Shown in pieces: positions 6,001 to 34,600 of a DNA stretch of 64,000 nt (positions within the stretch are counted from its first letter, which is position 1; each line of letters starts with the position of its first letter). The stretch is taken from contig OZ017749.1 of the NCBI GenBank assembly GCA_963969365.1, positions 3,844,001 to 3,908,000 of the forward strand, in the 5' to 3' direction. This DNA comes from Asterochloris sp. CNOR1 (lineage: Eukaryota > Chlorophyta > Trebouxiophyceae > Trebouxiales > Trebouxiaceae). The translations under genes were made by a program, and so were the position numbers. The notes under the pieces are model-generated. The model had not been told where the DNA came from and made no database searches. It saw only the letters and a list, made by a program, of their open reading frames with translations.

Positions 6001-9000
6001 CAGGGTCAAGGCGCCATGCTTGGCCGTGCTCACTTTGTGCTGTGCTGCTGGGACGAGCTGTCGTGCTGGTCGCCACAGTGGTGGTGGGTTGCCTGGTTGT
6101 GGTAGCAGGAGGAGCTGAGGTGCTGGGTAAGGCTGTGCTAGGCTCTTCAGCTGTGATGTTGGGGGGAGCTGTTGCAGAGCCGGACGGAGCCGTTTTTGGC
6201 TGTGCAGCGGGTACAAGGACAGGTGCAGGTGCCGTGGGCTCCTCTGTGGAGGTGGTGGGAGCAACTGAAGTGGTTTCTGGATCTGTGATGGGCGCAGCTG
6301 TGGTGGACTCCTCACTGGAGGTGTATGGCGCAGCTGACGTGGACTCTGGAGCTGTGGTGGGCGGAGCTGTGGTGGGCTCCTCACTGATGGTGCTTGGCGC
6401 AGCTGAAATTGATTCCAATTCTGTGGTGGGAGGAGCTGTGCTGGGTTCTTCTGTGGTAGGCGGGGGCTCCGTGGGTTCCGCTGTGGTGGTGCTGGGAGGA
6501 GCCGTGGTGGGCTCACTGATCGTGGTGCTGGGCAGAGCGGTGGCAGGCTGCTCTGTGGGTGAGCTGGGTGACGCCGTTGAAGGTTCAGCTGTGGTTGAGC
6601 TGGGAGCCTCTGGTGAAGGCTCCCCTGTGGTGGTGCTGGGGGGCGGCATAGCAGGCGCCTCTGTGGGCGTCTCTGTGCTGCTTGTGGTGGGTATCACCAT
6701 GCTGGGTGGCTCCATGGAAGTTGGGTTGGGCACCTCTGTGGAGCTCGAGCTAGGCGGCTCTGTGGATGTCAGAGATGCTGTTGTGCTGATTGGTGGTGGC
6801 GGACTGCAAGGCAAGGGCTGCTTTAGTGAAACTAAGGGGGTCAGCAGGGTCGGATTGCGGTGGCGAGGTGGTGTACAATGCATCAAGAAGCCAGCTCCAG
6901 CGTCTGTGGCGGAATTGGCAGAATGCTGCCAAGGAAGCCTCATTGTTCGTGCCGAGCAGCATCATCAAGCTCAGAGCGCACACCTTGGAGGTGAAGGCAG
7001 GCTCTCAGGTGGTGGCGGGCTGGGACTGCACTCACAACACAGCATCTACAGGACAGCTCAGTGCACCAAGCCATGTGTGGTGCTTTGAAGGTCAGCACAC
7101 TGCTGAGCAACACTTCTATATGGTGCGGGTGGCAGATGGCATTTCAAACAGCTCAATGCAGCAGCCAGCAAGACCCATAAGCAGTAGTGTTGCCTTGGTA
7201 GTCAGATACGTCATGCTAAGCAACATATGCATGACCCTGGTGTGTGCTGGCTTCAAGCAGCCAGAAAAGGCAATGGGCTTTCAGACAGGTTAGTGCGACT
7301 TTGCAAAAACAAAATGTGTTGTTGTAGGCTGAGTGCAGTGGAGGCATTGTGGCCTACCTGACTGTTGTGGGAGGGCTTTCAGGTGGGGGCTGATCTGGTG
7401 GCGGCGGACTGCAGGCAGAGGACAGTGGATTGAACTGGTATGTCGCAAAGAAACTCAGCAGGCATGCTGGTCCTCGCTGGAACTGATGGCAGTCAGCAGA
7501 CGTCACTGAATGCCATTTGACACAGCCATGACAGGCTCAGCCAGGCACTGTGCAGGACTGCAGACACATGTCAAAGTCGAAGGCACCAGGAAAGGTTCTG
7601 CACAGGCTCTACACCTCACTGGGGGCAGGCTTTCTGGCAGTGGCAGACTGCAGGTTGACGGACTGGTCCTCAGAGAGGGGCCGTATCAATGAGGACAACA
7701 GTGGGAACTCCAGGCAACCATTCTGGGAATGGACAGCACAGTTTGCTGGGCAGCTGATCATGATGATGCTCCACAGATGTGATGCAGCCGCCAGCAAGCA
7801 ACAAGAACTGTACTTGCCTTGATGGCAGCGGAGGGCTTGAGGGCGGCGGAGGGCTGGGAGGCAGCAGACTACAGGCAGCATGTGAGCCAGGTCAGCAACA
7901 TAGCAGTCAGTGCAGTACTTTGCGTATAAGTGGACAGGTGCATATTGTCGTTAGCACAGGTGCATCTCATGTTGCCTTGCACAGCCTTGGTAAGCACGGC
8001 AGACCAGCACGGTGCTCTAAAGGCATCTTGGTGCGGGGCAAGATCTCAAAGTTTGGGGGCGATGGATGTGGCGATGGGCTGCAGGCAACGTCTTTGAGCC
8101 CGATGAGGAGCACTAGCAGTGATGAACTGTGACCCAGGCATGTGCATACAGCTGTGCAATCAGTGAGCAAGCATAACAGGGCAGCACAGGGACACAAAAG
8201 CTGTCAGTTTAAAGCAGGCTACAGTACCTGGGTGGCGGTGGAGGGGGCAGTGGCGGACTGCAGGCAGCAGACCAGATTTTAACCAGCTGAGAGCAGCGGC
8301 GAGCAACGGCTGCCAAACCATTTTTGCAGCCAAGCCTGACCATGGACAGCACCAGCAGAGGCAAGTGAGCAGCAGATGCTGCTTACAAAGCTTGGCACCG
8401 GAAAGGTCAGCGTCAGCATGCATTGCAGGCTCCAGGTGGCCGTCAAGACAGCATTGGACAGCTATGGGCCACACTATGAGAAGCAGCATGGGCTGGAATC
8501 GAGCTTGCCTTGGTGGCGGCGGTGGACTCGAGGGCGGATCAGGCGGTGGTGGACTGCAGGCAGCATGTGAGCCTGCTCAGCAACAGTAGCAGTCAGTGCA
8601 TTACTCTGCTTATAAGTGGACAGGTGCATATTGTCGTCAGCACAGGTGCACCTCATGTTGCCTTGCACAGCCTTGGTAAGCACGGCAGACCAGCACGGTG
8701 CTTTAAAGGCATCTTGGTGCGGGGCAAGAACTCAAACTTTGGGGGCGATGGATGTAGCGATGGGCTGCAGGCAATGTCTTTGAGCCCGATGAGGAGCACT
8801 AGCAGTGATGAACTGTGACCCAGGCATGTGCATGCAACTGTGCAATCAGTGAGCAAGCATAACAGGGCAGCACAGGGACACAGAAGCTGTCAGTGCAAAA
8901 GCAGGCAGCAGTACCTGGATGGCGGTGGAGGGGGCAGTGGCAGACTGCAGGCAGCAGACCAGATTTTAACCAGCTGAGAGCAGCGGCGAGCAATGGCTGC

Positions 9001-12000
9001 CAACTTGATCTTGCAATCAAGCCTGACCATGGACAGTACCAGCAGAGGCAAGCAGCAGATGCTGCTTACAAAGCTTGGCACAGGAAAGGTCAGCGCCAGC
9101 TTGCACTGTAGGCTCCAGGTGGCAGTCAAGACAGCTATGGGCAGCTATGGGCCACATTGTGAGAAGCAGCATGAGCTGTAATCAAGCTTGCCTCGTTGGA
9201 GGCGGCGGACTCGAAGGCGGATAAGGCGGTGGTGGACTGCAGGCAGAGAGCAACGCGGTCAGCGTGCAAAGAGCTCGACAGCATGCACTGCACCTGCAGT
9301 ATTGAGCAGCCAAAGGGCACCGTGGACACATCGAGCATATCAAGCCACAGCTGAGGCTTCATCAGCTCGGCATTGCAGTCAGCCACAGCCTTGCCTTGGT
9401 GGCGGCGGGGGGCTTAAAGGTGGAGGCGGAGGGTTTGGAGGTGGAGGCGGAGGGCGTGGAGGTGAAGGCGGAGGGTTTGGAGGTGGAGGCGGAGGGTGTG
9501 GAGGTGGAGGCGGAGGACTTGGAGGTGGCGGCGGAGGGTTCGGAGGTGGCGGCGGAGGGTTTGGAGGCGGAGGCGGCCTGCAGGCAGCCACGAGAGGTGC
9601 TCAGACAGATTAGCAAGACACATGAGGATGTGTTCAGGCAGCCGGCACAGGCAATCAGGTACCATGAGCATGCACCATAGTGGCTGGGTGGGGCTCAAGT
9701 CTGCCAAGGGTAACTTGGGAGCCTTAAGAGCCGTCAAGCTCAAGCAGACAAACGCTGGCGCTTCACACAGCGCAGTGCAGTGCAGTATTGAGCAATGGCC
9801 GACATTGTCCCTGCCTTGGTGGCGGCGGAGGACTTGGAGGCGGATGTGGTGGTGGTGGACTGCAGGCAGAGAGTAGCAGGTCAGGGTTGAAAGAGCACGG
9901 TAGCATGCACCACACCTGCAGTATTGGACGGCCAGACAGCACCGCAGACAACAGAATCATTTGCGCCACAGCAGATGCTTCATTAGCCAGGCACCAAAGT
10001 CAGCAGCAGTCTTGCCTCAATGGCGGGTGGCGGCGGAGGTGGCGGAGGGCTTGGAGGTGGGTGCGGACTTGGAGGCGGCGGCGGAGGGTTTGGAGGTGGG
10101 TGCGGCGGTGGAGGGCTTGGAGGTGGGTGCGGCGGTGGCGGACTGCAGGCAGGCGCCTCCTTTTATAACCAGCAGCAGCCAATGTAGGCAGCACACAGTG
10201 CAGCAGATGAAGCGCTTGAGAAAGCTGCAAGCCCCAGGCAGCAAGGGACAGACTGCAGGAAGCAGATGGCAGTGAGTGCCAGGCAGCGCAGCAATCAGCA
10301 CCTGGGAGGAGGTGGAGGGCTGGGAGGTGGAGGGCTGGGAGGTGGATGAGGTGGCGGCGGACTGCAGGCAGGCGCCTCAGCTCATGAACAGCAGAAGCTA
10401 GTGAAATAAACTAGGCAGCATGCAGTGCAGCAAGTAAAGCGCTTCAGAAAGCTGCAAGCCCAGGCGGCATGGGACAGACTGTTGGAAGCAGATGGCAGTG
10501 AGTGCAGCAAGCCCAGTGCAGCAGTCAGCACCTGGGTGGAGGTGGGCTTGGCGGTGGCGGACTGCAGGCAGCAAAGCAACAGGTTCAGGCTGCAACGCGG
10601 ATGGCAGCATCAACTGCAGGTGTACAGGAAACACAAACCAAACAGCAGCACAGCTCAGTTGAAGCAGATGTGAAACCACATCTGGTGCTTAGCATAGCAT
10701 GCGCAGCACACTGCCCGCCTTGGAGGAGGGGGCGAAGGACTCGGAGGTGGGGGCGGACTGCAAGACAGAAGAGGTGTAGCTCAGACAGCTGGGCCAGCAA
10801 TACACAGCGCTGGTTTCGAGGATCTGGTGGTGCTCAAGGCAGCACAAGCAGTACCATGAGCGAGCCGGCTGGCAGGGGCATCTTCAGTGTGCTTCTTCAG
10901 GAGACCCAGTGCCTCAGGTGCGAGACAGCAGTGGAAGTGGCACGGCCTGACTCACGGTGCGCATGTGGTCCCAATGGCTGTGCCTGCCGAGTGAAGTTTT
11001 GTGGGGGGCGTGAAGGGGTTGGCCCCGCACATCGCTGTGTTTTGTTGCACGGTGCTGACAGGGAACAGTAAAACATGTCAGTACATTGCTGGCAGGGAAT
11101 GATGAAAGACATGGGCAGTGATACAAATCAACACGTTTTTGGCAGGGAACAGTGAAACAAGTAGGTACAGTGCTGATAGGGTATAGTGAACGAGAATAGC
11201 ATTGACCGCTTGGATGGAGCCTTAGCATGTTTTCAGATGCCGCAGCAAATATACAAGGACGGGGCCTCTGATTCATGCCAAGAAGGCAACTCACAAGGTG
11301 GTGATCTGTGTTGAGTTAGCTAAACTGGGAGGCAGCGATCCCACCAGGACATTGTTGTCCATATTGCTGCAGAACAGGCGCAGCATCAGCAGGCACCAGC
11401 TGCAAGGTGCAACGAGCCATGCAGACCTGGTAGGCTGTCTTGCTGAGCAACTTTGGCAGCTGTGTGGCAGCAGGCGTCCAGAGCAGTGCAGACTGGCAGG
11501 CAGATGTGCTTGGCCATACTCACAAATTCGTCATGGAAGTGCAGAATGTGACGTTGGAAGAGATGGTACCTGTTAGCCCGAGGCCGTTCACAGCACTGCA
11601 GACAGCAGTGGCAGGGAGATTATTTGCAGCTCTGGCAGACATATGTTGCGCCAGATGGCTCTGCATCTTGATTCCAACAGAACTCACAGCCATCAGAGGG
11701 CGGGGCGACCAGCTTGGCAAGCAGCAGGCAGGAGCACCCTTGTACTAGCTACCAGGAATGTGGCAAGACATTGGCAAGCAGCTAGCCGACTGCCGCTGCA
11801 GCCACATGACAATGCCAAGGCGTGCAACTGGCGTGCAGTCAGCTGGCTGGCACAGCAGTTGTTGCAGCATATGGAATCCCAGAACCACCATTGAGTTCCA
11901 GGCCCAACAGCAGGCCAGCAGTCAGTGCTGCCTCAGCAGTGCCGTCAGACTGCTCTGGTGAGACGTCGCCATGCATTGGACTCACTGCTGCCTCAGCAGT

Positions 12001-12495
12001 GTGAGCGCAGTGCTATGTGCTCATATGTCTGTGAAGAGCATTGCACCCTCAGTGCTGCTCCAATTGTGCACTCACATTTGTGTGATAAGACCTGCAGGAC
12101 TGCATGTCACCCCTGTAGCTGTGGAAGTGTAGCCTGTCACCACGCTTTGCGCATTGTATTGGGGCGCGCACACAGGGTCGCTTGGCGGCTTCCAGCCTGT
12201 CAGCTTGCTCTGAGGGTCCCCGATGCCTGCTCCCAGGCCAGACAGGCAGTTGTCTGCATGGCAAGAAAGGTGCCGTGTGACTGGGGGTCACGCGGCGCGC
12301 GTGGACTAGCAACACAGCATCTCACTGCAACTGTCCTGCACAAGCTGTGATCAGTATCAGTGCTGCTTCACAAGGCGTGTTGGGAGTGTACTCACAGTCG
12401 TCGAACTGAGCTGCTTGTGCTGCTGTCAGGTAAAGCAATCCAAAAGTGGCGGCACATGTGACCCTCCATGGCAAGAATATGCCTGTGCTGATCAT
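1..12495 (-). CDS. LRR/Ig-like polycystin-family channel, tandem copy A (3' end off window)
   Basis: Multi-exon gene read right to left. It starts at the ATG at 12495 and runs off the left edge just before the S6 exon. Exons: 12396-12495 (signal peptide), 12076-12253, 11524-11595, 11295-11366, 10956-11054 (LRR module), 13 proline exons between 10757 and 7358, 6034-6803 (mucin-like), 5494-5877, 5153-5419, 4883-5116, 4594-4782, 4347-4509 (Ig-like), 3062-4253, 2813-2959, 2529-2780, 2141-2434, 1913-2053, 1623-1804 (TOP domain), 1303-1478, 773-1225, 543-663, 314-474, 103-218 (S2 to pore). Phases agree at every junction except one 127-nt proline exon. About 2,180 residues lie in the window. The channel part matches PKD2-type polycystins; the ectodomain order (LRR, Ig-like, large extracellular domain) recalls polycystin-1. 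Likely role: surface or ciliary cation channel with a wall-contacting ectodomain (inferred from family). No lesion is seen in the coding exons apart from that stalk exon. Confidence 0.8.
103..1478 (-). other. Copy A channel module, S2 to pore
   Basis: Five exons encode the polycystin channel core without S1 and, in this window, without S6. The 1303-1478 exon carries S2 (FLVVLAACFTAFTVI) and the start of S3 (GNDWAICVAQW). The 773-1225 exon completes S3 (LALYVTFAV), then has a long proline-rich loop with runs of P and a Thr/Asn-rich stretch. Exon 543-663 is S4-like (SWFIFFQTSILVQLVIRW). Exon 314-474 has the S4-S5 linker and S5 (LLIFILLLFIPYLLCIMFG). Exon 103-218 has the pore helix with LLIIGDFMG; IGD lies where PKD2 has its LGD filter. 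The S3-S4 loop is far longer than in PKD2. Confidence 0.75.
1623..2780 (-). other. Copy A polycystin (TOP) extracellular domain
   Basis: Four phase-compatible exons (2529-2780, 2141-2434, 1913-2053, 1623-1804) encode the extracellular domain that in PKD2 sits between S1 and S2. Recognisable motifs are NRLLTGLFLQQ, FGYDPVFGTYSSLWNIQLVG, FGYFALRLTWNRDGSITSS and the closing LQVVPYS. It follows the secreted N-terminal ectodomain directly. With a cleaved signal peptide the domain would be correctly outside the cell even though no S1 helix is visible. The preceding 147-nt exon (2813-2959) is Gln/Leu-rich and could form a short coiled coil. Confidence 0.75.
3062..4253 (-). other. Copy A 1,192-nt exon for large Ala/Ser/Asn-rich extracellular domain
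   Basis: The largest exon of the gene encodes about 397 residues placed between the Ig-like modules and the channel. It is rich in Ala, Ser, Val and N-glycosylation sequons (NASA, NYSG, NTSN, NSSG). It lies where animal polycystin-1 carries REJ/GAIN sequence; that assignment is by position and composition only, since no GPS cleavage motif was recognised. The start is phase 2 and the end phase 0, in agreement with both neighbours. Confidence 0.55.
4347..5877 (-). other. Copy A Ig-like module (five exons, DUF5011/Cry22-type)
   Basis: Exons 5494-5877, 5153-5419, 4883-5116, 4594-4782 and 4347-4509 all begin in phase 1, as typical shuffled ectodomain exons do; all end in phase 1 except the last, which ends in phase 2. 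The first has the clear DUF5011/Cry22 Ig-like signature: SITVRQGTTYSDPGATAVD near the start and YTATDAQGQTGSVNRTVTV at the end. The others are cysteine-bearing relatives with signatures such as TDTQDGNL and FDKQDGDLSASV. The family name comes from a bacterial protein, but the fold is a generic extracellular beta-sandwich; nothing here suggests a toxin. Copy B lacks the exon corresponding to 4347-4509. Confidence 0.7.
6034..6803 (-). other. Copy A mucin-like Thr/Ser/Pro exon
   Basis: A single 770-nt exon (starts phase 2, ends phase 1) encodes about 257 residues of imperfect repeats of the type EEPTTAPPTT and PPSTTTAEP, with almost no other residues. This is the composition of a heavily O-glycosylated stalk. 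The 5' end still begins with SPPPP, so the exon looks like a proline exon that has been extended. The donor is GTGAGC after a CAAA context at 6034. The opposite strand is also open and reads as a Val/Gly-rich protein, a composition artefact. Confidence 0.75.
7358..10757 (-). repeat. Copy A array of 13 symmetric Ser-Pro(n) micro-exons
   Basis: Inferred exons: 7358-7408, 7615-7647, 7818-7868, 8228-8257, 8509-8553, 8915-8944, 9192-9236, 9395-9577, 9815-9859, 10016-10142, 10302-10361, 10532-10561, 10719-10757. Each starts after CTGCAG (or CTGTAG) with one base that completes a Ser codon, continues as CCN codons, and normally ends in AG two bases into the next Ser codon. All are multiples of three and phase 2 at both ends except 10016-10142 (127 nt). 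Exons can therefore be gained, lost or skipped without changing frame. Seven of the 13 donors are GC rather than GT. The encoded polymer (S-P4-6 blocks with N, H or D) resembles algal hydroxyproline-rich and pherophorin stalks. Confidence 0.7.
7876..9240. repeat. About 685-bp tandem duplication carrying two proline exons each
   Basis: The sequence from about 7876 to 8555 is repeated from about 8561 to 9240 with high identity. Landmarks such as TATAAGTGGACAGGTGCATA recur about 685 bp apart, as do the intron text before them and the CAGACCAGATTTTAACCAGC block. Each unit carries one 30-nt exon with a GTACTG donor and one 45-nt exon with a GCAAGC donor. It shows how the array grows: an intron-exon-intron-exon cassette is copied whole. 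Confidence 0.8.
10956..12253 (-). other. Copy A leucine-rich-repeat module
   Basis: Exon 12076-12253 encodes an LRR N-cap of plant type (NCLSGLGAGIGDPQSKLTGW, then a Cys and a GVTC motif). Exons 11524-11595 and 11295-11366 are each exactly 72 nt, phase 2 at both ends, and each encodes one 24-residue LRR (LGLTGTISSNV and VLVGSLPPSLANSTQITTL). Exon 10956-11054 is the C-cap with MCGANPF and a second Cys. The layout is LRR followed by a Ser-Pro stalk, as in plant LRR-extensins, here fused to a channel. Confidence 0.75.
12396..12495 (-). other. Copy A first exon with signal peptide and displaced start codon
   Basis: The predicted start is the ATG at 12493-12495, giving MISTGIFLPW followed by a hydrophobic run and an AQA cleavage motif. 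At the position where copy B has its ATG, copy A has ATA. The upstream in-frame ATG, five codons earlier, therefore replaces it. The exon ends at a GTGAGT donor in phase 1 and joins 12076-12253. Confidence 0.65.
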
Positions 12496-12628
12496 GCTGG
12501 CTCAGCTTCAGTTCCTCTCAGCCCAGCAGGCGTGGCCTGCTTGCTGCTGCGATGATAATGACACATTTAGCGTTGCCGAATGCTCAGCAGTTCGTGACTT
12601 GCAGGGCCAAAGAGGAGAAAGAGGAAGT

Positions 12629-12653
12629 GGGGGGGGGGGGGGGGGGGGGGGGG
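12629..12653. repeat. Poly-G tract of 25
   Basis: An uninterrupted run of 25 G followed by GAGAGAG, about 135 bp upstream of the copy A start codon. The same place upstream of copy B (36270-36313) has a purine-rich GA/G stretch instead. It may form G-quadruplex or triplex DNA, and its length is prone to sequencing error. Confidence 0.9.
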
Positions 12654-12837
12654 AGAGAGTCTGAGAGCATATGAGTGGTTGACCAATAGTTGAATGGCGG
12701 GTAAGTGTCTAAGTACCTGATTTCAGATGACCGTTCCATGCGGAATATCAGTGCGGAGTATCAGCATAACTGCAAGGATGCACCAACGACGACTTCAGCC
12801 AAGTGGTCATGATCAGCAAGTCCCTTATCTAGATGGC

Positions 12838-19600: not shown

Positions 19601-22600
19601 AGTGTGCCGCCGGTGCCTGTTGGCATAGTCCTCGATGCCACGCATCTGCAGACAACTTGACATGATAGAGCACAAGCACATTTGGCGCCAGCAGATTACG
19701 TCTGTGGCAATGTATGATGCAGTGCAAGGTATGCCACACTCATTCTGCTGGATCCACCCAGTGCCTAGCCTGATCAGCATAGTGTTGAGCCACAAAACTC
19801 AAGCAGACATGGTGCAGACTCAAATGAAAGCTGAACAATTGCAAGCTGTGATGCGGACACACCTTGCCGAATTGATTTTGAGCCTCGCGCCCCATGTCAT
19901 CAACAACTCTCTCTGCCCAGGCTATGAGCGCTTGTATGTGCTGACTGTCATCCCAAAGGACCCACCAGCTGTGTTGACTATTGCCACTGAGGCAGCCTTG
20001 CAACCTCTCCACAAGCCAGCCAAAAGTGCGATACCTGTAATGTTTGGGAGAAAACGGCTCTCTCACCCAACAAGCAGAGCAAGCTTATGACATCTTTTGA
20101 AAAATGACATGACAAAGAGCATGACAAGTACCTTTAGCACAGTTAAGAGGGCCGCGACAGCCCTGCATTGCTGAAACTTGGTGTAGGCCTGAACTTGGAG
20201 CCCTGAACACTTGGCTCACCAGCGAGTGCTCTTGTAGCCAAAGAGAGCCTCAGGCGCATGCGCCAGGCTGACAAGCAGGCGCACTGCCTCGTCAATCTCA
20301 ATACGCAACACTTGTTCGCCAGCTAATAGATTGCCCTCCATGCCCTCTTGCTGAATGACGCCCTGGTGAACAGCCATCAGCAGACCACGTGTGGCCTCAC
20401 GTGACATGCCCGTGCTGGCCTTGGCTTGCTGTAGTGCCGCAAGCCAGGTGTTAGCAGGGTTGCCCTCCTTCGACTCATGAGGCTTCTTGCTAAATATCCT
20501 GCAACAGACGATCGTCGACATGATGAGGGAACAGCTCTTAAGGCGCTTCACCAGACAAGCAGACTCCTCTGCGTCTAATGCCTGGTGTCCAGCTCAGGTG
20601 GACACAATCCATAAAACAGGCATGACATGATCTGAACAGATCGACTTGGTCCCTACCTCATCAGCAACATTGAGCTGCGGATGCCTGTGGCCTGAACCTT
20701 GAGCTGGCGCAGACGCATGACCAGCTGCAGGACGCGGAGGCTAGATGACTTGTGACTGCGAGAGGGCGACTTGGTGAGGAGCTTGGTCAGCACTGGCCTA
20801 AATTTGCAGCATCAGGCAGACCTTATGAGCATGCGCCACGTGTCCAGGCCAAGGTAGTACAGGTTTTCTGCCACAGCCAAGGAAGCTTTGGCCTCTTTGG
20901 CAAGGCGCCGTGCTCGAATCTCTTGCCTGCACATCGTACAAAGAAGGTGAGCACTCTTGGCACCATACTGTCAATACTGCATGTCCGGCCCTTACCCATG
21001 AAACGTGTCGATGATGATTCCAATGATGATGCCAAGGAAGCAAGCCTTGATGAAGAAGGGAAAGCCCCACAGGTAAAGAGACTGCATGGTTCAAGATATA
21101 AGAGGCAATTTGAGCCCTTGTGCAATTGCTGCAGGCACAAGCAGCAATGAGGACACAAATGCTCTGCCAGATATCAGTCACCTGAGCAACCTTATCTGTC
21201 CAGGAGAAGATGAGGACATTTTGCTGAGCATGCAAATCATCCCTTGTTCCCATGAAATCGCCAATAATGAGCAGGCTGAAGAAGGTTTCTGATGAACCTG
21301 CAGACGTGTTTATCACTCTTGCATTGATGGCAGGAATTCGAACTGTGAATTGCAACCTGTGCCATGCTGGGAGTCACATGTCGCCTGCTTACCTCTCAAG
21401 GTACACAGCTGGGCTGTAGTCTCCCCAAACATGATGCAGAGGAGGTACGGAACGAATAATAGCAAGACAAAGATCAGCAACATCATGTGCAACAGAGCTG
21501 GCAAGGCCCCTGCCAGAGTTCTAGCCACCACTCCGAGGCGGGGCTGGAAGTCCCTGCATTGCACTGTCCAGTATGTGATGCTGGCTTGTGGCCAAAAGCA
21601 GGGACGAAAAACACAACTAACCATTGTTGCAGCCAACGAATAACAAGTTGCACCAGAATGCTGGAGTGAAAGAATATGAACCAGTTGTGCAGCTCATAGA
21701 GGATGTCAACGGCCTCAGCAAATTAAAGGGATTGCTGAAAACCTGGAACCAGCTGCCAGCCATGTTAGTGGTGGACTCTTTTGCTGCCAGCCTTGAGAGT
21801 TATAGATACCTGTACAAGGAAAGGCCAGGCTCATGAAGACATGTGCACAGCACATCACCTGTGCTATTTGTGGGCAACTCCCGACGGTGTGGGCCGCCTC
21901 GTTCTGTGGCGTTTGTCGTTGTGTTGGTGACCATCAGGTGCCCTGCGTGCCCTGTGGGATCTGCATTGCCGGGGTCCACTGCATGGCTGAGTGGCATGGG
22001 GGGCCACCATCTGTCCAGACCAGGATCTGGCTGCTCAGCTACTGTCAAAACTGACCAGCAGCCATCTGCTAAGGACTGCAACTTGCGAAAGGTCCCTGGA
22101 GAGCTGCTCAAAGGTGGTGGAGGTGGAGCTGCCAGCATTGGTGGGGGCCAGGGAGGACTCTCGATATGTGGAGGTGGCGGAGGAGGCTCCACCTCAGCTG
22201 GAGGCGGTGGTGGAGTATTCATGCGGTCAAGCAGGAAGAACCTGGCTTGGGCGTACTCGTCTGAATCATAGACCTCATAGTACGGCTGGGGCTGCAGATT
22301 GATGCACTGACGCACGACAAATGTCAGGTACAAGGCCAGGCCTGCAAGCAAGAGCCAGAAGCATGAGCTACATCAGGTTGTGTTGGCTCCTAAAACAAGA
22401 GCACTGCAGAGAGGTCAGCCGTCCATTGTGCGATGCAGATGGCCCAGTCATTGCCTAGCTGGGGGTGTTCCTTCAAGGCCTTCCAAAGTGACCCGCCAAC
22501 ATCCCGCTGAGCGCTTTGCACTTTGATGACAGTGAATGCTGTAAAGCATGCTGCCAAAACCACCAGGAACGCTTCTATGATAATGTGGCGCCACCTGCAT

Positions 22601-25600
22601 TGCCAGGCAGTATCACTGGTAAAAGCAGTTCAGCCTCAGCAGCAGCAAATCAAACAACAAGGTGGCCTGTGTGTCACACATGAGGTTTTTTACTGATGCG
22701 ATGCAGATGGATGCACAGTATCCTCAGCAAGCCTGGAAGGCAGCTCAAGACTCACTCTGTGCGTGCAGCGCTGTAGGGAACCACTTGCAGCGCAGAGAAT
22801 GACATGCTGCTGGTGATGGAGCCGTCCCGATTCCAGGAGAGTGTCAATGCAAAGTAGCCAAAAAGCCGTGCATTGCCATTGAAGGCCACCATCTTCAGCT
22901 GTATTTGCTGCACCCCATTTGTCAAGTACTTGCCGTCCTGCAACGTGACATGCAAAATTGAGGTGCACACCATCAGGCTATGGCGTGAGATCCAAAGCTG
23001 CACGCATTGTCATTGCAAGAGCAGGGCAAGTATGGTGCTTACCAAAAGGTATTGCAACACATCTGCACTGCGGTTTGCCGACATCTCTGTGGTGAACAAT
23101 GCAGGGAAGGTGACAACAGCACCAGGCATATTCTCATCCATGAAGCCAAAGGGATTGCCAGAGGAGTCTGCCTCTCCAGAACCCTGCAGAAGTGGGATAT
23201 GAAGCATGACCAGGCAGAAACCCTGTGCATGCAAGCTTCCTTCAGGGGCAACATTGATAGCACTCTCACTGTTGTGAGGTTGTAGAAAGACCCCTCCTGC
23301 CCAACAAGCTGGATGTTCCACAGACTAGAGTAGGTGCCAAACACGGGGTCATAGCCAAAAGGGCTGTTGGCTGTGGACCCTGTCCGGTTTACAGAGGCTG
23401 CATCAAGCGACCTTTTGTCAATAGCTAGCAGGCAGGCATGAAACCATCGTAGGCAACAAGGACCAGCTATCGCATCACACTGACTGAGGTAGGCAAATTG
23501 CTGGTCCTGGCACGCAAAACCTAGCCTCCCCAAGTGGCCTTGGCACTTCAGCACAAAGCGTTCCTGCAAGACACAGACAAGATGTCTCAGAGTGTGACAC
23601 AGGAGCCAGATTGTGAATGATGTGCTCCAGTCATGTTGTTCTGTCAGCTGCAAAGTTGCCGCACCTGCTGTAAGAACAGACCTGTCAGCAACCTGTTGCT
23701 GCCCTTTGACCCCAGAAAGCGCTCCCTGTATTGCTCTGTGACAGTCTCAGCAGGCTTGAAATTCTGGGTGCTGTACACGTCGTAGCTATACCACAGACGC
23801 TCAAGCCAAGGCACTGCAGTCTCCGCTGATTGATGTGCCGTCGCTGATGTATTGGCACTGGGGTTGATACCATGGTTGACCTGCAAGCAGGTCACCATGC
23901 TGAGAGCAGGCCCCACATTTCTCTTGCACAGCGGCGCGAGATTTGTGTTTTGACCTGGAAGTGATATTGCCCCTCGCCGTTGATCCTAGCGCATGGGATG
24001 CTTGACTGTGCAACCAGTGCAGTTGAAACTGTAGTGCTTTGTAACCCCTGGACCTGCGTCTGCAAGCCGGTCAATGAGTTTCGCATGGACTGCTCAGTTG
24101 CCTGCATCAACAAGGCAGCTCAGTGATGCAAGGCACAGAGTCATGGGGCTTACACTAGTGCTTGCCAAAAATGCATGCATATGGAAGGCAACTCAGTGAT
24201 GCAGTGAGAAAAGCCGTAGGGCTTGCACTTATGTATGCCACAGATGCTACACTGTCAGCAGGTCTGGTGGTTACTCACCGAAACAGAGCCGAACGAATAC
24301 AGTGTGCCAGCACTGGATATGAGATTATAGGCTGCCTGAACATTGCTGAATGAAGTGTGCTCTGAAGCTGAGGATGCAGCTGATAGGGCTACCAGGTCCT
24401 GCAGTGTACTTGATCGCGCAGCCACTGCCCCTTGAGCCTGAGACGTCACTGCCACGGCCAGAGCTGTGACAATGGCACCCGCGCCGACGTTTTGCTGCAT
24501 GAGTTGCTGGGCTGCCTCCATCACTGCTGCCAGCTCAGCAAGAGATGAGTCCACATTTGGGGTGAGGGTCGCTGCCACTGGCGTGCCTGAGAGTTGTAGC
24601 ACCTGGTAGGTCTGTAGCTGATTGCTGGCAACTGACGCTGCTTGCAACAGGAAGGCGTTCAAATCTGCCAAGTGATGGTGGACTGAAAACTGTTGTTGGC
24701 AGCACTGCAGCCGCCAGCTAAGAAGACAGGAGCCACTCCGTCATAGTACAGGGAAGAGATGGCAGTTGCATTGCACGTCGACACGCCCTGGAAGGCGCTG
24801 ATCAGTTGTTGTAGCCTCAGCTCCAGGGCAAAGACAATGGTGCTGGTGTCAGCTTGAAGTTGCCTGCGTCGCGGCCTGTCAGCAGCCGCAGCAGCTGAGA
24901 CCAGTGCCCTGGTGTGGGTGGCTCCCAGCGTGACGTCAGCGTCAGCCTCTGCTTGCACCAGCAGCTGCCGTCGTCGATGGTTGCTGCTAGTGATGGTGGT
25001 GGCATAAGCTGTGGTGTTGACAATGACTTGCACAGCCACCAGCACAGCAAAGTTGCCGCTGGTGACTGTGCCAGAGCTATTGGAGGCATTGCTCACGACG
25101 TATGAGCTGAGGTTCTGCACAAGGCCTGCACTGAGCAGGGCCACATCACTCTGCTGGACTGCAGAGTAAGAAAAGGCATCCGCGTTGTCAAAGGCGGCTG
25201 TGGCTCCCTCTGCCACTGCAGTGCTGGGCCCCACCCCGGTCAGCCATGTTGACAGGGAGCCGGCCAGCGCTGAGCGCAGGGCAGCATTGCCGCTGTAGTT
25301 TGTTTGGGGTATGGCGGCCGCCCATGCTGCCGCAGCTGACGCATTGGGGGCTTGGCGGGGCAGCCTACCAGAAGAGCGGCATGGTGACAGGGAGAGTGGG
25401 GCTGCAGAGCCGTAGGCAACGTTGATGGCCGACCCTGAACCCAGCAGTCGAGTGGCTGCGGTAAACAGGCTGATGACTGGAGGTAAGGGGATGAGCCCCA
25501 GTGATACTGCCACAGAGCAGGTCACCGGGTAGCACTTCCCACCGCAGAGGTACTGCCCTGCGCAAGGGCAATATTATTAGCATCACTGGCAGCTGGGCAC

Positions 25601-28600
25601 AGCTCTGCTGGGCACAAGTAAGCGTGATAACGATGATCGTCATTGTGTCCACATCACCGGTGGTACCTGTTGCACAAGGGGATACAATGACCAAGGTGCG
25701 CCCAGCGGTTGCATTCAGCACAGGAGTGCCTCTGTCGAAGACCAGGAAGCTGATGCTCATGGGTGTTCCCACAGGCTGGCTGGTATTAATGGCACAGTTG
25801 GCCAGGCCAACTCGGCTGAACTCCTGCCCTGCATGCACAGGAGATGCAATTGGCATGGTCCAGGAGATCTTTACTGTGCAGGGCAGTGGCAACTTGCATT
25901 TTTGAGACAGGCCTCACCTCTGCATTGGGTAGGCAGGCAGCTGGAGGGTGGGCAGGCCAGGATGCTGGCAGTCAAGTTGCCGTCCTGTGTGTCTGTTGCA
26001 CTGCCTCCAGGCTCGCAGGGTACAGCAAAGGATGGCTTGACACCTGAGCTGCAGGCGGCATATGTGCTGCTCTGATTGACCTGGACTGTCAGCCCCAGGA
26101 CGCTGGTTTCCACGGTCAGGTTGGGCGCTGTGTTGGACGCCAGGGAGGTGCTTGGCAGACAGACGCCAAACTTGGAGCAGGCACCTACAGCTAGACATAA
26201 ACCCTGGACGGACACGTTTTGCACATTACCCAAGAGGCTGGAGGCGAATTACACTCACCAAGGTTACTGCACCAGCCCTCAGGCGATATGCAAGGATCCA
26301 GCACTGTGACTGTTCTATTCACACTGGCAGTCTGCCCCTGGGCATCAGTGGCTGTATAGACAAAGACGAAGGGCTGTGGGGAGGTAGCACCTTTAGGAGG
26401 GGTGGGCTGAGCAGTGCTGAACGCTCTGTTGCCTGCAGTTTGAGCAGACCTCTTTGCAATTGCTGCTGTCTGCAGGTTGAGCAGGCAGGTGCTGCAGCAC
26501 TCAGAGGCTTCACCTTGTACGGTTGCAGTGACTTTCAGGACATTGCCAGCCGAGTCCATGACCGTGGCTCCTGGGTCGCTGTATGTGGTGCCTTGCTGGA
26601 CTGTAATGCTAGCCTGCCCAACAAGAACCATGCTGGGCCCTGTAGGTGAAGCTTGGCTTGATGCTTGGGTTGTGGTGGGGGCTGCAGCTACAGAGGCACC
26701 AGGTGGTCAGTGTGGAGTCTCTGTTGCACAGAAAAGCAAAATATTTGGGTGTAGGTTTGCACCTTGGGTCAAGGCGCCATGCTTGGCCGTGCTCACTTTG
26801 TGCGGTGCTGCTGGGACAAGTTGTTATGCTGGTTGCCACAAGGGTGGTGGGTTGCATGGTTGTGGTAGCAGGAGGAGCTGAGGTGCTGGGTAAGGCTGTG
26901 CTAGGCTCCTCAGCTGTGGTGTTGGGGGAAGCAGCTGCAAAGCCGGATGGAGCTGTTTCTGGCTGTGCAGCGGGTACGAGGACAGGTGCAGTTGCTGCAG
27001 GCTCCTCTGTGGCGGTGCTTGGGGGAACTGAAATGGTGTCTGCATCTGTGGTGGGCGGAGCTGTTGTGGGCTCTCACCAGTGGTAGTTGGCGCAGCTGAA
27101 GTGGTTTCCGAATCTGTGGTGGGCAGAGCTGTGCTGGGTTCTTTTGTGGTAGTGCTGGGCGGGGCCGTCGTGGGTCCTGCTGTGGTGGTGCTTGGAGGAG
27201 CTGTGGTGGGCTCACTGGTCATGGTGCTGGGCGGAGCAGTGGCGGGCTGCTCTGTAGATGAGCTGGGTGATGCTGTTGAAGGCTCAGCTGTGGTTGAGCT
27301 GGGAGCTGCTGATGAAGGCTCCTCTGTGGTGGTGCTGGGGGGAGGCATAGCAGGCGCCTCTGTGGGCGTTGTGGGCGCCATTGTGCTGCTTGTGGTGGGT
27401 GTCACCATGCCGGGTGGCTCCATGGAAGTTGGGCTAGGCACCTCTGTGGAGCTCGAGCTAGGAGGCTCTGTGGATGTCGGGGGTGCTGCCATGCTGATTG
27501 GTGGTGGTGGACTGCAAGGCAAGGGCTGCATTTGTGGAACTAGGGGGATCAACAGGGTAAGATTGAGCTGACAAGGTGGTGAACAAATACATTGAGGAGC
27601 CAGCTCCAGCCTTGGCAGCAAACTGTGGCAGGATGCTCCCTGAAAGCCTTACTGTCTGTGATGCATATCAAAGCACAGCTCAGACACTTTGAAGAAGGTG
27701 CCGGGCGTTCAAGTAGTGGCGGGCTGGGACTGCAGACTCAACTCAGCACGTTGCAAATAAGGGACGCCTCAGCACATTGAGCCATGTGTGGTGCGATGGC
27801 GCTCATCATGTTGCTGAGCAACTTCTCCAATGGTGCAGGCAGGTGGCATGGTACTTCACGCAGTTCAGTGCAGGGGCCAGCGCGATCCGCAAGAGAAATA
27901 ATATGTCATGCTGAGCAATATCAGCATGCCCCTGGTGTACGCTGGCTTTGAGCAGCCTGTGATGGCAATCGGCAAGTAGGATGTGATGCTTTGGGCTCAG
28001 TGCAGTGGAAGCAGGGTGCCTACCTGACTGCTGGCGGGGGGGGGCTTTCAGGGGGTGGACTTTGTGGCGGCAGCGGACTGCAGGCATATGGCAGTGATCT
28101 GAACCCGAACCATGTCTAGCAGAAACTCAGCAGGCATGCTTGTGCTTGCTGTACCTTTGTTGCAGGGCGCATATAGTTGCCAATCACAGCAGCCAGCACA
28201 GGCTCACCAGGCACTGTGCAGGACAGCAAGCACACTTCAATGAAACGGGCACCAGAAAAGCTTTGTAGAGGTTCTGCACCTCGGTGGTGGCGGGCTCTCT
28301 GGCGGTGGCGGGCTCTCTGGCGGTGGTGGACTGCAAACCGCAGAAGTGGTCCTCAGGAAGAGGGTCAAAACACAGCTTGCACTCCAGGCAGTTGCTTTTG
28401 AGGGACTGGGCAGCAATGTTCCCTGGGCAAATGATGTTTGCTCCACAAGACATAACGCAGCACAAGCACAGTAAGCCAACACTGAGCTTGCCTTGGTGGC
28501 AGCGAAGGGCTGGGAGGTGGCAGAGGGCTGGGAGGCGGCGGAGGGCTGGGAGGCAGTGGACTGCAGCCAGCATATGAGCCAGCTCAGCAACACCAGCAGT

Positions 28601-31600
28601 CCCTGCAGAACTTTGCGTATAACTAAACAGGTGTTTACATCATGTAAGCCACCATGGCAGCACAGCCCACAATACTGAAACAGCTCTGTGCAGGGTAAGC
28701 AGCAGCACCTTGGGGGCGGTGATTCCGGCAGCGGCGGGCTGCAGGCACATTTGAGACAGCTAGGAAGCACATGCAGTCAAAGCTATCTGAGCAAAATGGT
28801 GGCAAACTGAGAGCAGTGACAAGCAATGGCTGCAACCTATTTTTGCAGCCAAGCATGACTGTGGGCAACACCAGCAAAAGCCAGAGAGCCATGGGTGCTG
28901 CTCAGACAGGTTGGCAAAGCAAAGGGCAGCGTCAGCATGCACTGCAGGCGCCGGGTGGCACTTGTGACGGTACAGGTTCAGGTATAGGCCACATCACTAG
29001 ACGTGAGCTTGCCTTGGTGGCGGCGGGGAGCTTTCAGGTGGAGGAGGACTTGGAGGTGGAGGCGGCGGCGGACTGCAAGCACGCCAAGGCTTTGTGACAA
29101 TACAGGTTAGGTATAGGCCACATCACGAGCAGGCAGACGTGAGCTTGCCTTGGTGGCGGTGGGGAGCTTTCAGGTGGAGGAGGACCTGGAGGCGGCGGCG
29201 GACTGCAGGCAGGCCGAGACTTGTGACAGAACAGGGTGGGTTTAGGCCACATCACGAGAAGGCAGACGTGAGCTTGCCTTGGTGGCGGTGGGGAGCTTTC
29301 AGGTGGAGGAGGACTTGGAGGCGGCGGCGGACTGCAAGGCAGGCCGAGGCATCAGATAAGCACAAGTCTGGCAGCAGCGGGCTCTGCTTCTGATGGGAGC
29401 AGTCAGCACTGGCAGCAGTAAGTGCAGCAACTGGAGCAGTGACAGGGAACGCAATCCAATGTGCAGCAATGAGCACCTTGGAGGAGGCGGACTTGGCGGC
29501 GGTGGACTGCACGCAGCAACTGACAGGGTCAGGGTGGAGAGGGCACGTCAGCATGCACTGCACCTGCAGAAGCCGGCAGCCAAACAGCACTGTGGACAAC
29601 ATGAGCCTTTCCATGAGAGCCACAGCAGGTGCTCCTTAAGCTTGCCACTGCAGTCAGCAACTTGCCTTGGAGGCAGAGGAGGGCTTGGAGGTGGGGGCGG
29701 GCTGCAGGCGGCCAGGGTTGGGTATTAGACAGACCAACGAGACCCTTCTGCATGTGTGCAGGCAGCTGTGCACGTGCAATGTGAAATTAGGACCATATAC
29801 TGCAGGCAACACAGGGTAGATGCAGGCAGGTGGGCACAGGCAGGTGAATTGCAGGCACTGGTTGGGGCTCCAGTCTGCCAAGGGTAAGTACAAAAAATGT
29901 GTGCGCTGTCAAGCTTAAGCGGGCATAGCACAGCTTAGAAAACAGGTGGTGGCAACCCCTGCGCCTGCCTTGGAGGCGGTGGAGGACTCGGAGGCGGCGG
30001 AGGGCTTGGAGGCGGCGGAGGACTGCAGACAGCATATCATGCAGTCGACTTGATCTGCATCTAGTGCAGAACCTAGTTGTGACTAAAGTTTGAGGTGTGT
30101 AGCCATACATAAATTGGGTGCCCACGGCAGGGCAGCAAAGGAATCTGGAGATGGGGTCAACAGGGTTGGCAGTGGGGGCAGACTCCGACAGGAATCCAGT
30201 TCGAGTGTCCTGAAGCGGCAGAGAGCGCTGCACAGACAGCTTGGCAAGGCAAAGGGCAGCATAGACATGCACTGCAGGCGCTGGATGGCGACAGCACAGG
30301 GTTGATGTGGGCCACATTTTGAGAAGGCAGACATGGGCTGGCACGGAGCTTGCCTTGGTGGCGGCGGGGGGCTTTCAGGTGGAGGCGGCAGTGGTAGACT
30401 GCAGGCAGCAGACCAACAGGTTCAGGCTGCAACGGATGTCATCAACAATTGCAGGTGCAGATGAGATACAAAACACAACCAGCACAGCGCATCTGGTGCT
30501 TGAAATAGCATGCACAACATGAGTACCCGTCTGACAGGAGGCAGCTGAGGACTTGGAGGTGGTGGTTGACTGCAAGGCAGAAGAAGTCATGATCAGGTTA
30601 ATTTGTGTGACTCATCAGCGTGAAATCAGGCAACTGTGCACAGGCAATGGGGATCCATGAGCATATACTGCAGGCAGCACAGGATGGCGTGGAGGCAGCT
30701 GGGCACAGGAAACTGCATCGCAGTTGCTGGTTAAGGCTCCAATCTACGAAGGGTGAGCAGGCAACCTTGTAAGCAATTAAGCAGGCAGATGTCAGCTAGT
30801 TCCATAGCACATCGTGGCAATAAGGAGTGGCAAACACTGTGCCTGCCTTGATGGCGGTGGAGGACTCGGAGGAGGCGAAGGGCTAGGAGGTGGCGGAGGA
30901 CTGCAGGCAGCATTGGACTGTGATAAGGAATACTGGCAGTCAGTGCAAACTTTGCCAGAGTTGCCCACCTATGGGCTGGAGTATGCAGACAAAACAACTG
31001 CAAGAAAATGCACCAGGGCAGCATAAGCATCTGAAGGGGGCTCAGGGCAGGGTAGGCAGTAATGGAAACTTCTAGTTGTGATGTAGCAAAAATGCTCTAA
31101 AGCATTAGGGGCCGCTACTTGGCACAGCAAACAGCAGCGTCAGCACACACTGAAGCCGCTGAACGCTTGTGACAGCACAAGGTGACTTGGGCCCCTGTTG
31201 AATTGGCAGATGTGGCTGCAGCTCACCTTGGTGACGGCGGGGGGCTTTCAGGTGGTGGAGGATGTGGAGGCGGCAGCGGACTGCAGGCAAGGCGGGCCAT
31301 CAAGCTACAGCAAGCCTGGCAGCCGCAGGTAAATTATGATAAGTGTTTGTCAAGACAGCAGCCTGGCAGCTATGCAGCTATGCAGCAACGTGAGCAGCTG
31401 CACACCACAAGCACCATCAGAAAGAGTGTGGGAAGCAAATGACAATGTTTGCAATCCAGTGTGCAGCGACGAGCACCTTGGAGGAGGCGGGCTTGGCGGT
31501 GGTGGACTGCAAGCAGAGAGCAACAAGGTCAGGATGATGCGAAGAGCACGACAGCGCATCTGCACCTGCGGAATCTGGCAGCCACACAGCACTGTTGACA

Positions 31601-34600
31601 AGATGAGCACAAGTCAGTTCAGCCACAGCAATTGCTCCATCAGCAACTTGCCTTGGTGGCGGCGGAGGGCTTGGAGGTGGGGGCGGGCTGCAGGCGGCCA
31701 GAGTTGCGTGTTAACAGACCAACGATACTCATCTGCACAAGAGATTTTCAGGCAGCTGTGCACAGGCAATCATGAAATATGACCATATACAACAAGCAGC
31801 ACAGGGAGGAATGCAGGCAGCTGGGCACAGAGAGGTACACTGTAGGCACTGGGTAGGGCTCCAGTCTGCCAAGGCTGGAAATACATTGTGAGGTGTGAAG
31901 CCTAAGCTGGCACCTCTACATAGCACAGCATAGTAACGAGCAGTGGCAAGCACTGTGCCTGCCTTAGGGGTGGGGGAGGCCTCGGAGGTGGCGGAGGGCT
32001 CGGAGGCGGCGGAGGGCTTGGAGGCGGTGGAGGGCTCGGACGCGGCGGAGGGCTGCAGGCAGCACTGGATGCTGACGAGAGACACTAGCTTTCAGGTGGA
32101 GGAGGACTTGGGGGCAGCGGCGGACTGCAGGCAGGCCGCGGCATCACCCAAACAGCAAGCCACCCGCGGCAGACAATGTCTCGTTATGGGCATCAGTCAG
32201 CATTGGCAGCATGAAGTGCAGCAACTGGAGCAGCTTCAGAAGGCGGCATGCAACAAGCACCATCAGACAGACTGTGAGGGTGAGCGCTATCCAGTGTGCG
32301 GCAGTGAGCACCTTGGAGGAGGCGGTCTTGGCGGTGGTGGCTGCACGCAGCAACTGAGAATGTCAGGGTGCAAAGAGCATGTTAGCATGTACTGCATCTG
32401 CAGAATCTGGCAGCCAAAAAGCACCGTGGGCAGCATACGCAAACTTCAGTTGAGCCACGCAAAAGCTCCCTCAGCTTGCCACTGCAGGCAGCAACTTGCC
32501 TTGGTGGCGGCGGGGGGCTAGGAGGTGGGGGCGGGCTGCAGGCGGCCAGAGGTGGGTATCAGACAGACCAACGAGACCCATCTGCATGTGTCCAGGTGGC
32601 GATGCAGAGGCAATGAGGAACCATGAGCAGATACTGCAGAAAGCACAGGGTGGAATGCAGACAGCTGAGCACAGAGCGGTGCACTGCAGGCCCTGAGCGA
32701 GGCTCCAGTCTGCCAAGGGTGAGTAGGCAATCTTGTGAGCTTTCAAGCTTAAGCAGGCAGATTACACAGCACATCATAGCAAACAGTGGTGGCAGACACT
32801 GCGCCTGCCTTGGTGGCGGTGGGGGACTCGGAGGCGGTGGAGGGCTTGGAGGCGGCAGCGGGCTGCAGGCAGCACTGGATCCTGACAAGAGACAAGCAGC
32901 ATGCAAGTTGCACCTGTTACTTGGCCTGACATGTGCAGCCATAGACACATGAGCAAGCACGGCATGGCAGTAAAGCAATTTGAAGGGGGTTCAGCACAGG
33001 TTTATTGTGGGAAGCAAGTGACGGTGAGCACAATTCAGTGGGCGGAATGAGCACCTTGGGGGAGGCGGACTTGGCGGTGGTGGACTGCACGCAGCAGTCA
33101 ACAACGTCAGGGTGCAAAGAGCACGTTAGCATGTACTGCACCTGCAGGATCTGGCGGCCAAACAGCGCTATGGACAACATGAGCCATTTCAGGTGAGCCA
33201 CAGGCGAATGCTCCATCAGCAACTTGCCTTGGTGGCGGCGCAGGGCTTGGAGGTGGGGGCGGGCTGCAGGCAGCCAGAATTGGTATTAAGATAGATCACT
33301 GAGACTCATCTGCATGTGTTCAGGTAGCCATGCAGAGGCAATAAAGAACCATTAGCACGTATTGCAGGGAGCACAGGGTGTAATGCAGACAGCTGCACAC
33401 AAAAAGGTACAGTGCAGACACTGAGGCCGGCTTCAATCTGCCAAGGGTGAGTAGGCAGGCTTGTAAGCTGTCAAGCACAACAATGCAATTCATACAGCAC
33501 AGCAGAGCAAAGAGCTGTGGCAGACACTGCGCCTGCCTTAGTGGCGGTGGAGGACTTGGAGGTGGTGGAGGGCTGCAGGCAGCATTGCATCCTGATGAGA
33601 CACTAGCAGAGTGCAAGTTATGCTTGTCGCCCAAAGTGGGAGCCATGAAGACGTGAGCAAGCACAGCTTGGCAGTGAAGGGATGTGAAGGGGACTCAGTA
33701 CAGGTACAGTGTGGGAAGCAAGTGACGGTGAACACAATACAGTGTGCGGCAGTGAGCACCTTGGAGGTGGCGGACTGGGCGGTGGTGGACTGCACGCAGC
33801 AACTGACAGAGTCAGGGTGGAGAGAGTGCGTTAGCATGTACTGCACCTGCAGAAGCTGGCAGCCAAACACTACTGTGGACTAAGTAAGCAAAAGTCAGGT
33901 GAGCCACAGCGAGTGCTTCATCAGCTTGCCACTGCAGTCAGCAGCTTGCCTTGGTGGCGGCGGAGGTCTTGGAGGAGGGGGAGGGCTGCAAACAGCATAT
34001 CATGCAGTTGACCATAAGTAGCAGTTAGGGCAGCAACTATTTGTCATTCATTTTGCGGTACCTATTCATACATAATGCGAATAGGCACGGCAGGACAGCA
34101 GAAGCAGCTGAAGATGGGTCGATGGAGTTGCAGCGAGTGAGGCTCAAGCAGGAATCCAGTTAAAACGTCTCCGAATGGCAGAGGGCGCTGCTCAGACAGC
34201 TTGGGAAAGCAAGTGCAGCATTGCCATGCACTGCAGACAGTGAGTGGCACTTGTGACAGCACAGGGTTTATGCCCCGTTTTGAGAAGGCAGACATGGGCT
34301 AGCACTGAGCTTACCTTGGTGGCGGCGGGGGGCTCTCAGGCGGAGGCGGCAGTGGCAGACTGCAGGCAGCAGACCAACTGGGTCAGACATGGCAGCATCA
34401 ATTGCAGGTGTAGAGAGATACATGACAAGAACAGCACAGCTCATCTCAGCCACATCTGGGGCTTAGCGTAGCATGCACAGAATGATTACCCACTTGACAG
34501 GAGGCTCCGGAGCTATCTGAAAGAGGCGGCGAAGTAAGGCTGGGGGCGGGCTGCAAGGCAGGAGAGGTGTTGCTGGGACAGCTGGGTCAGCGATGAGCAG

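Follow-up and report, generated by a model that had tools for sequence, protein, structure and literature searches.

Arrays of phase-2 proline micro-exons in predicted polycystin-type channel subunit genes of the lichen alga Asterochloris

We have analysed a 64,000-nucleotide stretch of the genome of the green alga Asterochloris sp. CNOR1 (Trebouxiophyceae), hereafter the window (contig OZ017749.1, here C4, positions 3844001-3908000), together with the rest of the assembly (56.4 Mb searched, 21 contigs). The minus strand of the window carries two arrays of very short exons, each exon predicted to encode a block of serine and proline, in two related genes that we call copies A and B; such arrays occur at eight paralogous loci of the genome. 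We consider it likely that they encode the stiff extracellular stalk of polycystin-type subunits related to the protein MST3 of Chlamydomonas, and that the length of this stalk has been changed by duplication and deletion of exon-intron units. At the level of predicted exons this reading is carried by the gene anatomy of copy A, a phase rule obeyed by nearly all array exons, copied exon-intron units, a block of exons missing from one paralogue and the relation to MST3. Poly-proline rods act as rulers and are proposed membrane tethers in algal cilia; in the present genes the exon seems to serve as the unit of rod length, and gains and losses at the DNA level are visible among the eight paralogues. 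Coordinates without a contig name are window positions on the minus strand.

Micro-exon arrays and their changes in length

Our exon finder returned 131 array exons, which is a lower bound: 11 in copy A, 25 in copy B, 8 in copy D (C4:3817-3820 kb), 15 in copy E (C2:1765-1770 kb) and 17, 11, 23 and 21 in four more distant loci at C2 1283-1287 kb, C5 2334-2337 kb, C6 1714-1719 kb and C13 315-320 kb. It omits, as blocks not scored, A 10719-10757, A 7615-7647, A 10016-10142, B 27688-27729 and D 3817481-3817519, and also eight matches to the sequence pattern given below (one in the C2 1283-kb locus, C2a, five in C5 and two in C6), seven of which are followed by a weak GC donor. It counts a 29-nt exon of B (32312-32340) in a mis-extended 42-nt reading and takes A 7818-7868 in a 36-nt reading instead of a 51-nt one. 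A preliminary description of the window had reported two micro-exon arrays, and both are found: copy A has 13 candidates at 7358-10757, and copy B about 27 at 28024-34550, where about 28 had been claimed. Donors limited to GT gave just 15 candidates on the minus strand of the window, and that restriction was rejected, since GC donors are required.

The scan behind the 131 exons was restricted by phase, and the statement that all 131 are multiples of three is thus true by construction and is not evidence. When all nine phase combinations were allowed, 130 of 137 exons at the eight loci were in phase 2 on both sides (2/2), with four at 2/0 and three at 0/2; the same scan gave 2/2 for 11 of 12 exons of A and 24 of 25 of B, and 100 dinucleotide shuffles of the B region yielded 0 exons. 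The preliminary description, in which nearly all exons were multiples of three with phase 2 on both sides and 30-183 nt in size, agrees with these results and with the sizes of the accepted exons. In copy A the neighbours of the array agree with this: the leucine-rich repeat (LRR) exon on its 5' side has a phase-2 end, and the linker exon on its 3' side a phase-2 start. A first gene-finder run, with the linker exon in its training set, had read the blocks in phase 0 as Ser/Ala/Thr; this reading was discarded, as phase 2 is dictated by the exons on either side and an excess of third-position substitutions is found in the proline frame. Exceptions to the exon rule are a 127-nt exon in A, the 29-nt exon in B and two damaged candidates in B (30527-30569 and 34510-34550).

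The matches are strongly confined to the arrays. Over 337 kb scanned on both strands, 131 of 135 finder matches lie inside arrays, which amount to 35 kb, and the four found in the other ~302 kb comprise two in the C5 locus, one on C12 and one on C1. Genome-wide, the pattern TGCAGTCCNCCNCCNCC has 84 matches, compared with 0 for the reversed control, and 79 of these fall inside the eight loci; 17 of the 79 have no called exon, being six linker-exon starts and 11 that are mostly exons with unscored GC donors.

Most of the micro-exons are, as predicted, near-interchangeable Ser-Pro(n) modules. Array exons end in AG in 125 of 131 cases, and their first base is T in 89, C in 34 and G in 8. Together with phase 2/2 this means that nearly every join of one exon to another further downstream would preserve the frame and restore a Ser codon (AG|T or AG|C): Ser is formed at 111 of 123 consecutive array junctions (Arg at six) and at 1031 of the 1142 forward joins possible within a locus, neighbours and skips included. 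Inside the exons the predicted composition is 1522 Pro and 220 Ser, the next residue being Glu with 34, in keeping with the Ser-Pro stalk blocks described earlier, and the pattern of substitution supports this reading frame. We compared 65 pairs of related exons, selected for equal length, flank identity above set limits and mismatch of at most 35%; mismatches at codon positions 1, 2 and 3 numbered 46, 22 and 115, and 105 codon differences were synonymous vs 53 non-synonymous. Identity in these selected pairs was 0.93 for exons vs 0.84 for flanking introns.

Length change among the paralogues is visible as duplication and deletion of DNA and not as splicing, as far as genomic sequence can tell. 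The flanks of exons within one locus are up to 100% identical: the upstream flanks of exons E10 and E11 score 1.00, and two C5 exons score 1.00 on both sides, while A06 and A08 reach 0.93 and 0.91; values of about 0.9 or more occur in A, C6 and C13, and the median for all pairs is 0.54. Copy D matches exons 01-04 and the last exon of A, and between its homologues of A04 and A11 it has 162 bp, vs 2369 bp in A, so that a block of six finder exons (A05-A10) and the hand-added 7615-7647 is missing. Likely homologues of A09 and A10 occur in B and E, which argues that D most likely lost the block, and since D otherwise looks intact this loss would be a natural, frame-neutral one. That exon copying can change stalk length, as had been proposed, is therefore consistent with paralogues that hold 8-25 finder exons and with D. 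In-exon repeats of 21 nt appear to be a second route of length change, as the 183-nt exon of A (9395-9577), which contains a 21-nt tandem repeat, matches a 99-nt exon of D (C4:3819170-3819268). On the scale of the MST3 rod, in which 429 residues span 133 nm (~0.31 nm per residue), finder totals of 146-382 residues would correspond to stalks of about 45-118 nm; assembled by hand, with the 127-nt exon left out, the stalk of A would have 228 residues and a length of 71 nm.

The splice sites, which had been described as near-constant, are so for the acceptors (TGCAG) but not for the donors, which are a mixture of GT and GC. GC is found at 33 of 59 array donors of A, B, D and E. For A, D and E the figures are 18 of 34 scored array donors vs 1 of 66 in their other introns; Fisher's test gives p=1e-9, a value that overstates the certainty, the exons being copies of each other, and that is descriptive only. 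Outside the arrays, 87 donors were read in the four genes A, B, D and E, of which 85 are GT, one GC and one CT (one donor of copy B had no match and was left out). By comparison, GC-AG introns average 1.2% in plants according to one survey (PMC6310983). The GC state is unevenly spread, with 1 of 23 scored exons in C6 and 0 of 21 in C13, and 33 of 49 scored GC donors read GCAAGC or GCAAGT. It also appears to be inherited with the unit: in 83 related pairs 59 are GT/GT, 23 GC/GC and only one mixed. In that mixed pair, B 34315-34359 (GTAAGC) and B 30354-30398 (GCAAGC), the two donors stand at the same place in related exons, which is the best single support for GC donors. Seven further proline blocks of 30-39 nt, unscored, have weak GC donors (GCACGA, GCATGC, GCATGT or GCACGT) and begin at C5:2334040, 2334551, 2335071, 2335586 and 2336082 and at C6:1716376 and 1716990. 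Human and mouse genes with GC-AG introns are described as having weaker sites and as being more prone to alternative splicing (PMC7242645), and by analogy the GC donors here may make exons skippable. Such clustering of GC-AG introns is a strong splicing oddity and one that is easily tested.

Gene anatomy of copy A and its paralogues

Copy A is, as predicted from its genomic sequence, a polycystin-type channel subunit with an LRR head, a proline stalk, a Ser/Thr-rich linker, an immunoglobulin (Ig)-like domain and a PKD channel. Exon 1 (12396..12495, start codon at 12495) encodes a putative signal peptide, assigned by eye, and is aligned in B, D and E; a run of 25 G stands at 12629-12653, just upstream of the start codon. 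The LRR head (10956..12253, last donor in phase 2) comprises an N-cap exon (12076-12253), two single-LRR exons of 72 nt in phase 2/2 (11524-11595 and 11295-11366) and a C-cap exon (10956-11054). The unit size of LRR exons in plant LRR receptor genes is likewise 72 nt, and the array may owe its phase-2 setting to the phase-2/2 LRR exons of A. The proline array itself (6984..10757) has its 13 candidates at 10719-10757, 10532-10561, 10302-10361, (10016-10142), 9815-9859, 9395-9577, 9192-9236, 8915-8944, 8509-8553, 8228-8257, 7818-7868, 7615-7647 and 7358-7408, and one more at 6984-7025. The bracketed 127-nt exon has a homologue of 126 nt in D, the difference being one extra C in A; it would shift the frame if included and is therefore skipped, damaged or an assembly error.

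Downstream of the array lie a Ser/Thr/Pro-rich, mucin-like linker exon of 770 nt (6034..6803, phase 2 to 1), whose counterparts in D and E can be read through in one frame, an exon encoding an Ig-like domain (5494..5925; PF16403, E=1.3e-12, 48 bits vs a cut-off of 27), further extracellular domain exons (2529..5419) in which the pieces scanned gave no Pfam family above cut-off, and a polycystin TOP-like region with the PKD channel (1..2434), which runs on beyond the window (C4 below 3844001). The model comprises 2088 residues and is open to the last in-window exon (103-218) when the 127-nt exon is omitted. It is not exact.

A search with the N-terminus returned 30 LRR proteins, most of them plant receptor kinases, with a best E of 2.2e-18 for residues 30-175; Pfam LRRNT_2 on the head remained below cut-off (E=0.48). 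The N-terminal search gave no Asterochloris gene model spanning the array, and no annotated transcript over the array was seen. At the other end, PKD_channel (PF08016) is matched in A with E=7.5e-9 (35.8 bits vs a cut-off of 22.4), and six-frame matches above cut-off occur at A and D. A profile of the channel ends of A, D and E found a single PDB match at E up to 0.01, namely 9b4h_X (MST3), with E=1.1e-35. The TOP family PF20519 had no six-frame match in the genome, but it had none in the controls either, and the region is split over exons; it was also below threshold in the pieces of A scanned, and the MST3 homology covers that region. By hydropathy S2, S3, S5 and S6 of A exceed the threshold, which S4 and the signal peptide do not reach; the S1 position shows no helix, and one marginal peak (1.51) lies in an extracellular exon. 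The Pfam matches of the pieces of A scanned included no pherophorin domain. A search for full-length relatives with the channel end of A, residues 1497-2088, returned none, for which word and length limits are the probable reason, and we do not read this as absence.

An existing Asterochloris gene model, jgi/Astpho2/8787, is scored as 100% identical to an exon of A over the 52% that aligns, with a few single-residue differences visible in the sequences, and partly supports our model from inside the 3062-4292 exon onward. The two models differ in that the exon ending at 2813 starts further upstream in jgi/Astpho2/8787, another donor is used inside the 3062-4292 exon and a piece of the transmembrane exon is absent.

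Copy B (21098..36161, with a provisional lower end) is, judging from its sequence, a recently broken paralogue of A. Its array (27688..34550) has all 25 finder exons within 28024-34550, about 27 with the damaged candidates, and ends in a 42-nt exon with a GT donor (27688-27729) that is the homologue of A 6984-7025. Outside the array four disabling changes were counted in B: compared with A, its linker exon and its large extracellular exon have each lost 1 nt, CT stands at the site of a GT donor in A, and an in-frame TAA interrupts the S4 exon at 21723-21725. About 440 bp of A (4141-4586) are also absent from B. Several independent lesions make assembly error unlikely as the sole cause of this damage, and the ~27 exons of B are thus no evidence for a working long stalk. 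The preliminary description had taken B, with ~28 exons, as the long form of the stalk, and the in-frame stop, the two 1-nt frameshifts and the lost donor speak against this. Its proposal of a length-setting extracellular tether survives in part: a tether fits an MST3-related polycystin subunit and length differs among the paralogues, but the working long form B has to be given up, and exon skipping is a conjectural means of setting the length.

Related domains flank the arrays at seven places besides A, namely B, D, E, the C2 1283-kb locus, C5, C6 and C13. Matches to the channel end were obtained at five loci, namely A, B, D and E and the 1283-kb locus of C2; the clear pieces at C5, C6 and C13 are confined to TOP-like or other extracellular sequence. 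Outside the array and linker, about 1600 aligned codons contain no in-frame stop in A, D and E and one in B, and the ratio of non-synonymous to synonymous substitution rates (dN/dS) lies at 0.28-0.35 in all six pairwise comparisons among A, B, D and E; for the broken B against A, D and E it is still about 0.3. A possible further member lies at C12:1735830-1738924, with an LRR N-cap match, Ser/Thr-rich linker-like sequence and a single proline exon found. Upstream of the C5 and C13 arrays, PA14-like pieces at ~2337.3 kb and ~322.0 kb score 22.2 and 22.7 vs the Pfam cut-off of 24 bits, and a six-frame genome search with PF07691 matched one place only, on C1, the C5 and C13 heads not being among the matches; the stalks of this family may thus be fitted with more than one kind of head, LRR or PA14-like. 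Two PKD2-like channels, at C3:2723340-2724023 and C5:598750-599847, have no proline array around them by the finder and are possible partners of the stalked subunits. IFT57 is present in the genome. Elsewhere in the window, and unrelated to these genes, tandem repeats built of 62-74-nt units stand at 49417-49564, 49930-50112 and 51014-51131.

A proposed mechanism and its alternatives

We propose that phase-2/2 Ser-Pro(n) modules would remake Ser between proline runs at almost any join, and that the arrays would have grown and shrunk through duplication and deletion of exon-plus-intron DNA, in length steps of roughly 3-6 nm for typical exons of 30-54 nt if the MST3 value of ~0.31 nm per residue applies, with the head and channel remaining under purifying selection. 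By comparison with MST3, the product may be a hydroxyproline (Hyp)-glycosylated polyproline-II rod, and the subunit may join PKD2 and so tie the wall, the extracellular matrix or an outside structure to a cation channel. Several points weigh against this proposal. Every splice junction within the arrays is a prediction, and the sole public gene model found covers the C-terminal part only; inclusion of the 127-nt exon of A would disrupt the frame; a single founder exon could have handed on the symmetric phase passively through duplication; the signal peptide, assigned by eye, is below the hydropathy threshold used; and channel-end matches exist for only five of the eight loci.

The idea of a founder can be extended to a neutral ratchet, in which one symmetric phase-2 proline exon beside phase-2 LRR exons was copied by unequal crossing-over and length simply drifts, with no tuned function. 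This is a serious possibility, if short of the probable one: flanking introns have been copied along with the exons, the donor state passes with the unit (common to 82 of the 83 related pairs), the single LRR exons are likewise in phase 2/2, and the largest array by the finder belongs to the broken copy B. It sits less well with exons that are more alike than their flanking introns (0.93 vs 0.84 in the 65 selected pairs) and show a third-position excess, or with a frame-neutral architecture kept in eight diverged loci, although drift of length itself is still compatible with both. That the whole set is made up of decaying pseudogenes, with the arrays as debris, is very improbable in our judgement; the several independent lesions of B and the one frame-breaking array exon of A would fit, but in A, D and E the ~1600 aligned codons outside the array and linker are free of in-frame stops, dN/dS is about 0.3, and the linker exons of D and E are open in one frame.

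Splicing offers another account of variable length, whereby weak GC donors would make exon inclusion variable or regulated and each gene would yield many stalk lengths. Several features point this way: the share of GC among the array donors of A, D and E (18/34 vs 1/66 outside), compared with a plant average of 1.2% (PMC6310983), the weaker sites and greater proneness to alternative splicing described for human and mouse GC-AG genes (PMC7242645), the retention of Ser in most possible skips, the need to skip the 127-nt exon of A and the seven unscored C5 and C6 blocks with weak GC donors. However, the GC exons stem from few founders, so that the enrichment does not represent 18 independent events, most scored GC donors stand in an otherwise good context, C6 and C13 have almost no GC among their scored exons, and variable inclusion is here a prediction from genomic sequence; we regard this account as doubtful. 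A wider version, in which Ser-Pro exons and weak GC donors form a length rheostat of a mechanosensitive channel, spliced in the short term and duplicated in evolution, with swappable LRR or PA14-like heads, we regard as improbable. On the reading that we prefer, a DNA-encoded stalk, the paralogues amount to a natural experiment on the tether length of a polycystin channel in a lichen photobiont; copy D looks intact and yet is without at least six exons. The genome paper of the photobiont describes flagellated gametes and zoospores in Asterochloris and reports that the alga activated expression of flagellar components (PMC6652019).

Comparison with known systems

The closest known system is the mastigoneme protein MST3 of Chlamydomonas, of 8,572 residues, whose paper is the source of PDB entry 9B4H (PMC11015965). 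That paper proposes MST3 as the tether between mastigonemes and the membrane of the cilium; its poly-proline N-terminus is seen as a thin rod with repeats termed a molecular ruler, and it is described as lacking S1, which SIP is proposed to supply; seven SIP-binding partial PKD2-like proteins are also predicted in Chlamydomonas, with LRR among the domains of the legend and poly-proline in all but one (PMC11015965). Like these proteins, copy A would have a large extracellular N-terminus with poly-proline, an Ig-like domain, a TOP region and a PKD channel, and it may, like MST3, be without S1, no such helix being seen by hydropathy. The poly-proline region is predicted from genomic exons, and we infer its extracellular side. 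MST3 differs in having 42 long P13...P11(XXP)3 repeats that bind MST1, as well as C-type lectin domains, whereas the stalk here would be far shorter (146-382 residues), with one short block per exon.

Among exon arrays the nearest likeness is to titin. PEVK exons of titin are frame-neutral and variably spliced, and here too a frame-neutral exon array codes for a Pro-rich tether, with 130 of 137 predicted exons in phase 2/2. The titin PEVK region is Pro-rich and repetitive, with 74-109 exons within its bounds in 41 mammals and a number that varies (PMC6469411). Titin is, however, an intracellular muscle protein without homology to the putative extracellular channel-subunit stalk, in which GC donors are prominent.

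The micro-exon genes of schistosomes are dominated by small symmetric exons and encode secreted proteins, with exons that are smaller and diverse; the likeness is confined to small symmetric exons, as the proteins are unrelated and the exons here are near-identical proline modules. Volvocine pherophorins and plant extensins are soluble Hyp-rich glycoproteins of the wall, whose SPn blocks are expected to be hydroxylated and glycosylated; they share such blocks with the arrays, which however appear to belong to a channel subunit and not to a soluble wall protein.

In open papers we found no report of proline micro-exon arrays in algal Hyp-rich glycoprotein or polycystin genes, which is weak evidence of novelty. 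Poly-proline polycystin-like subunits with LRR among their domains are already known from Chlamydomonas, and exon arrays for a Pro-rich tether from titin. What would be new, as far as the literature searched extends, is a stalk coded by near-interchangeable phase-2 Ser-Pro micro-exons at eight loci, together with the cluster of GC donors and the natural multi-exon loss.

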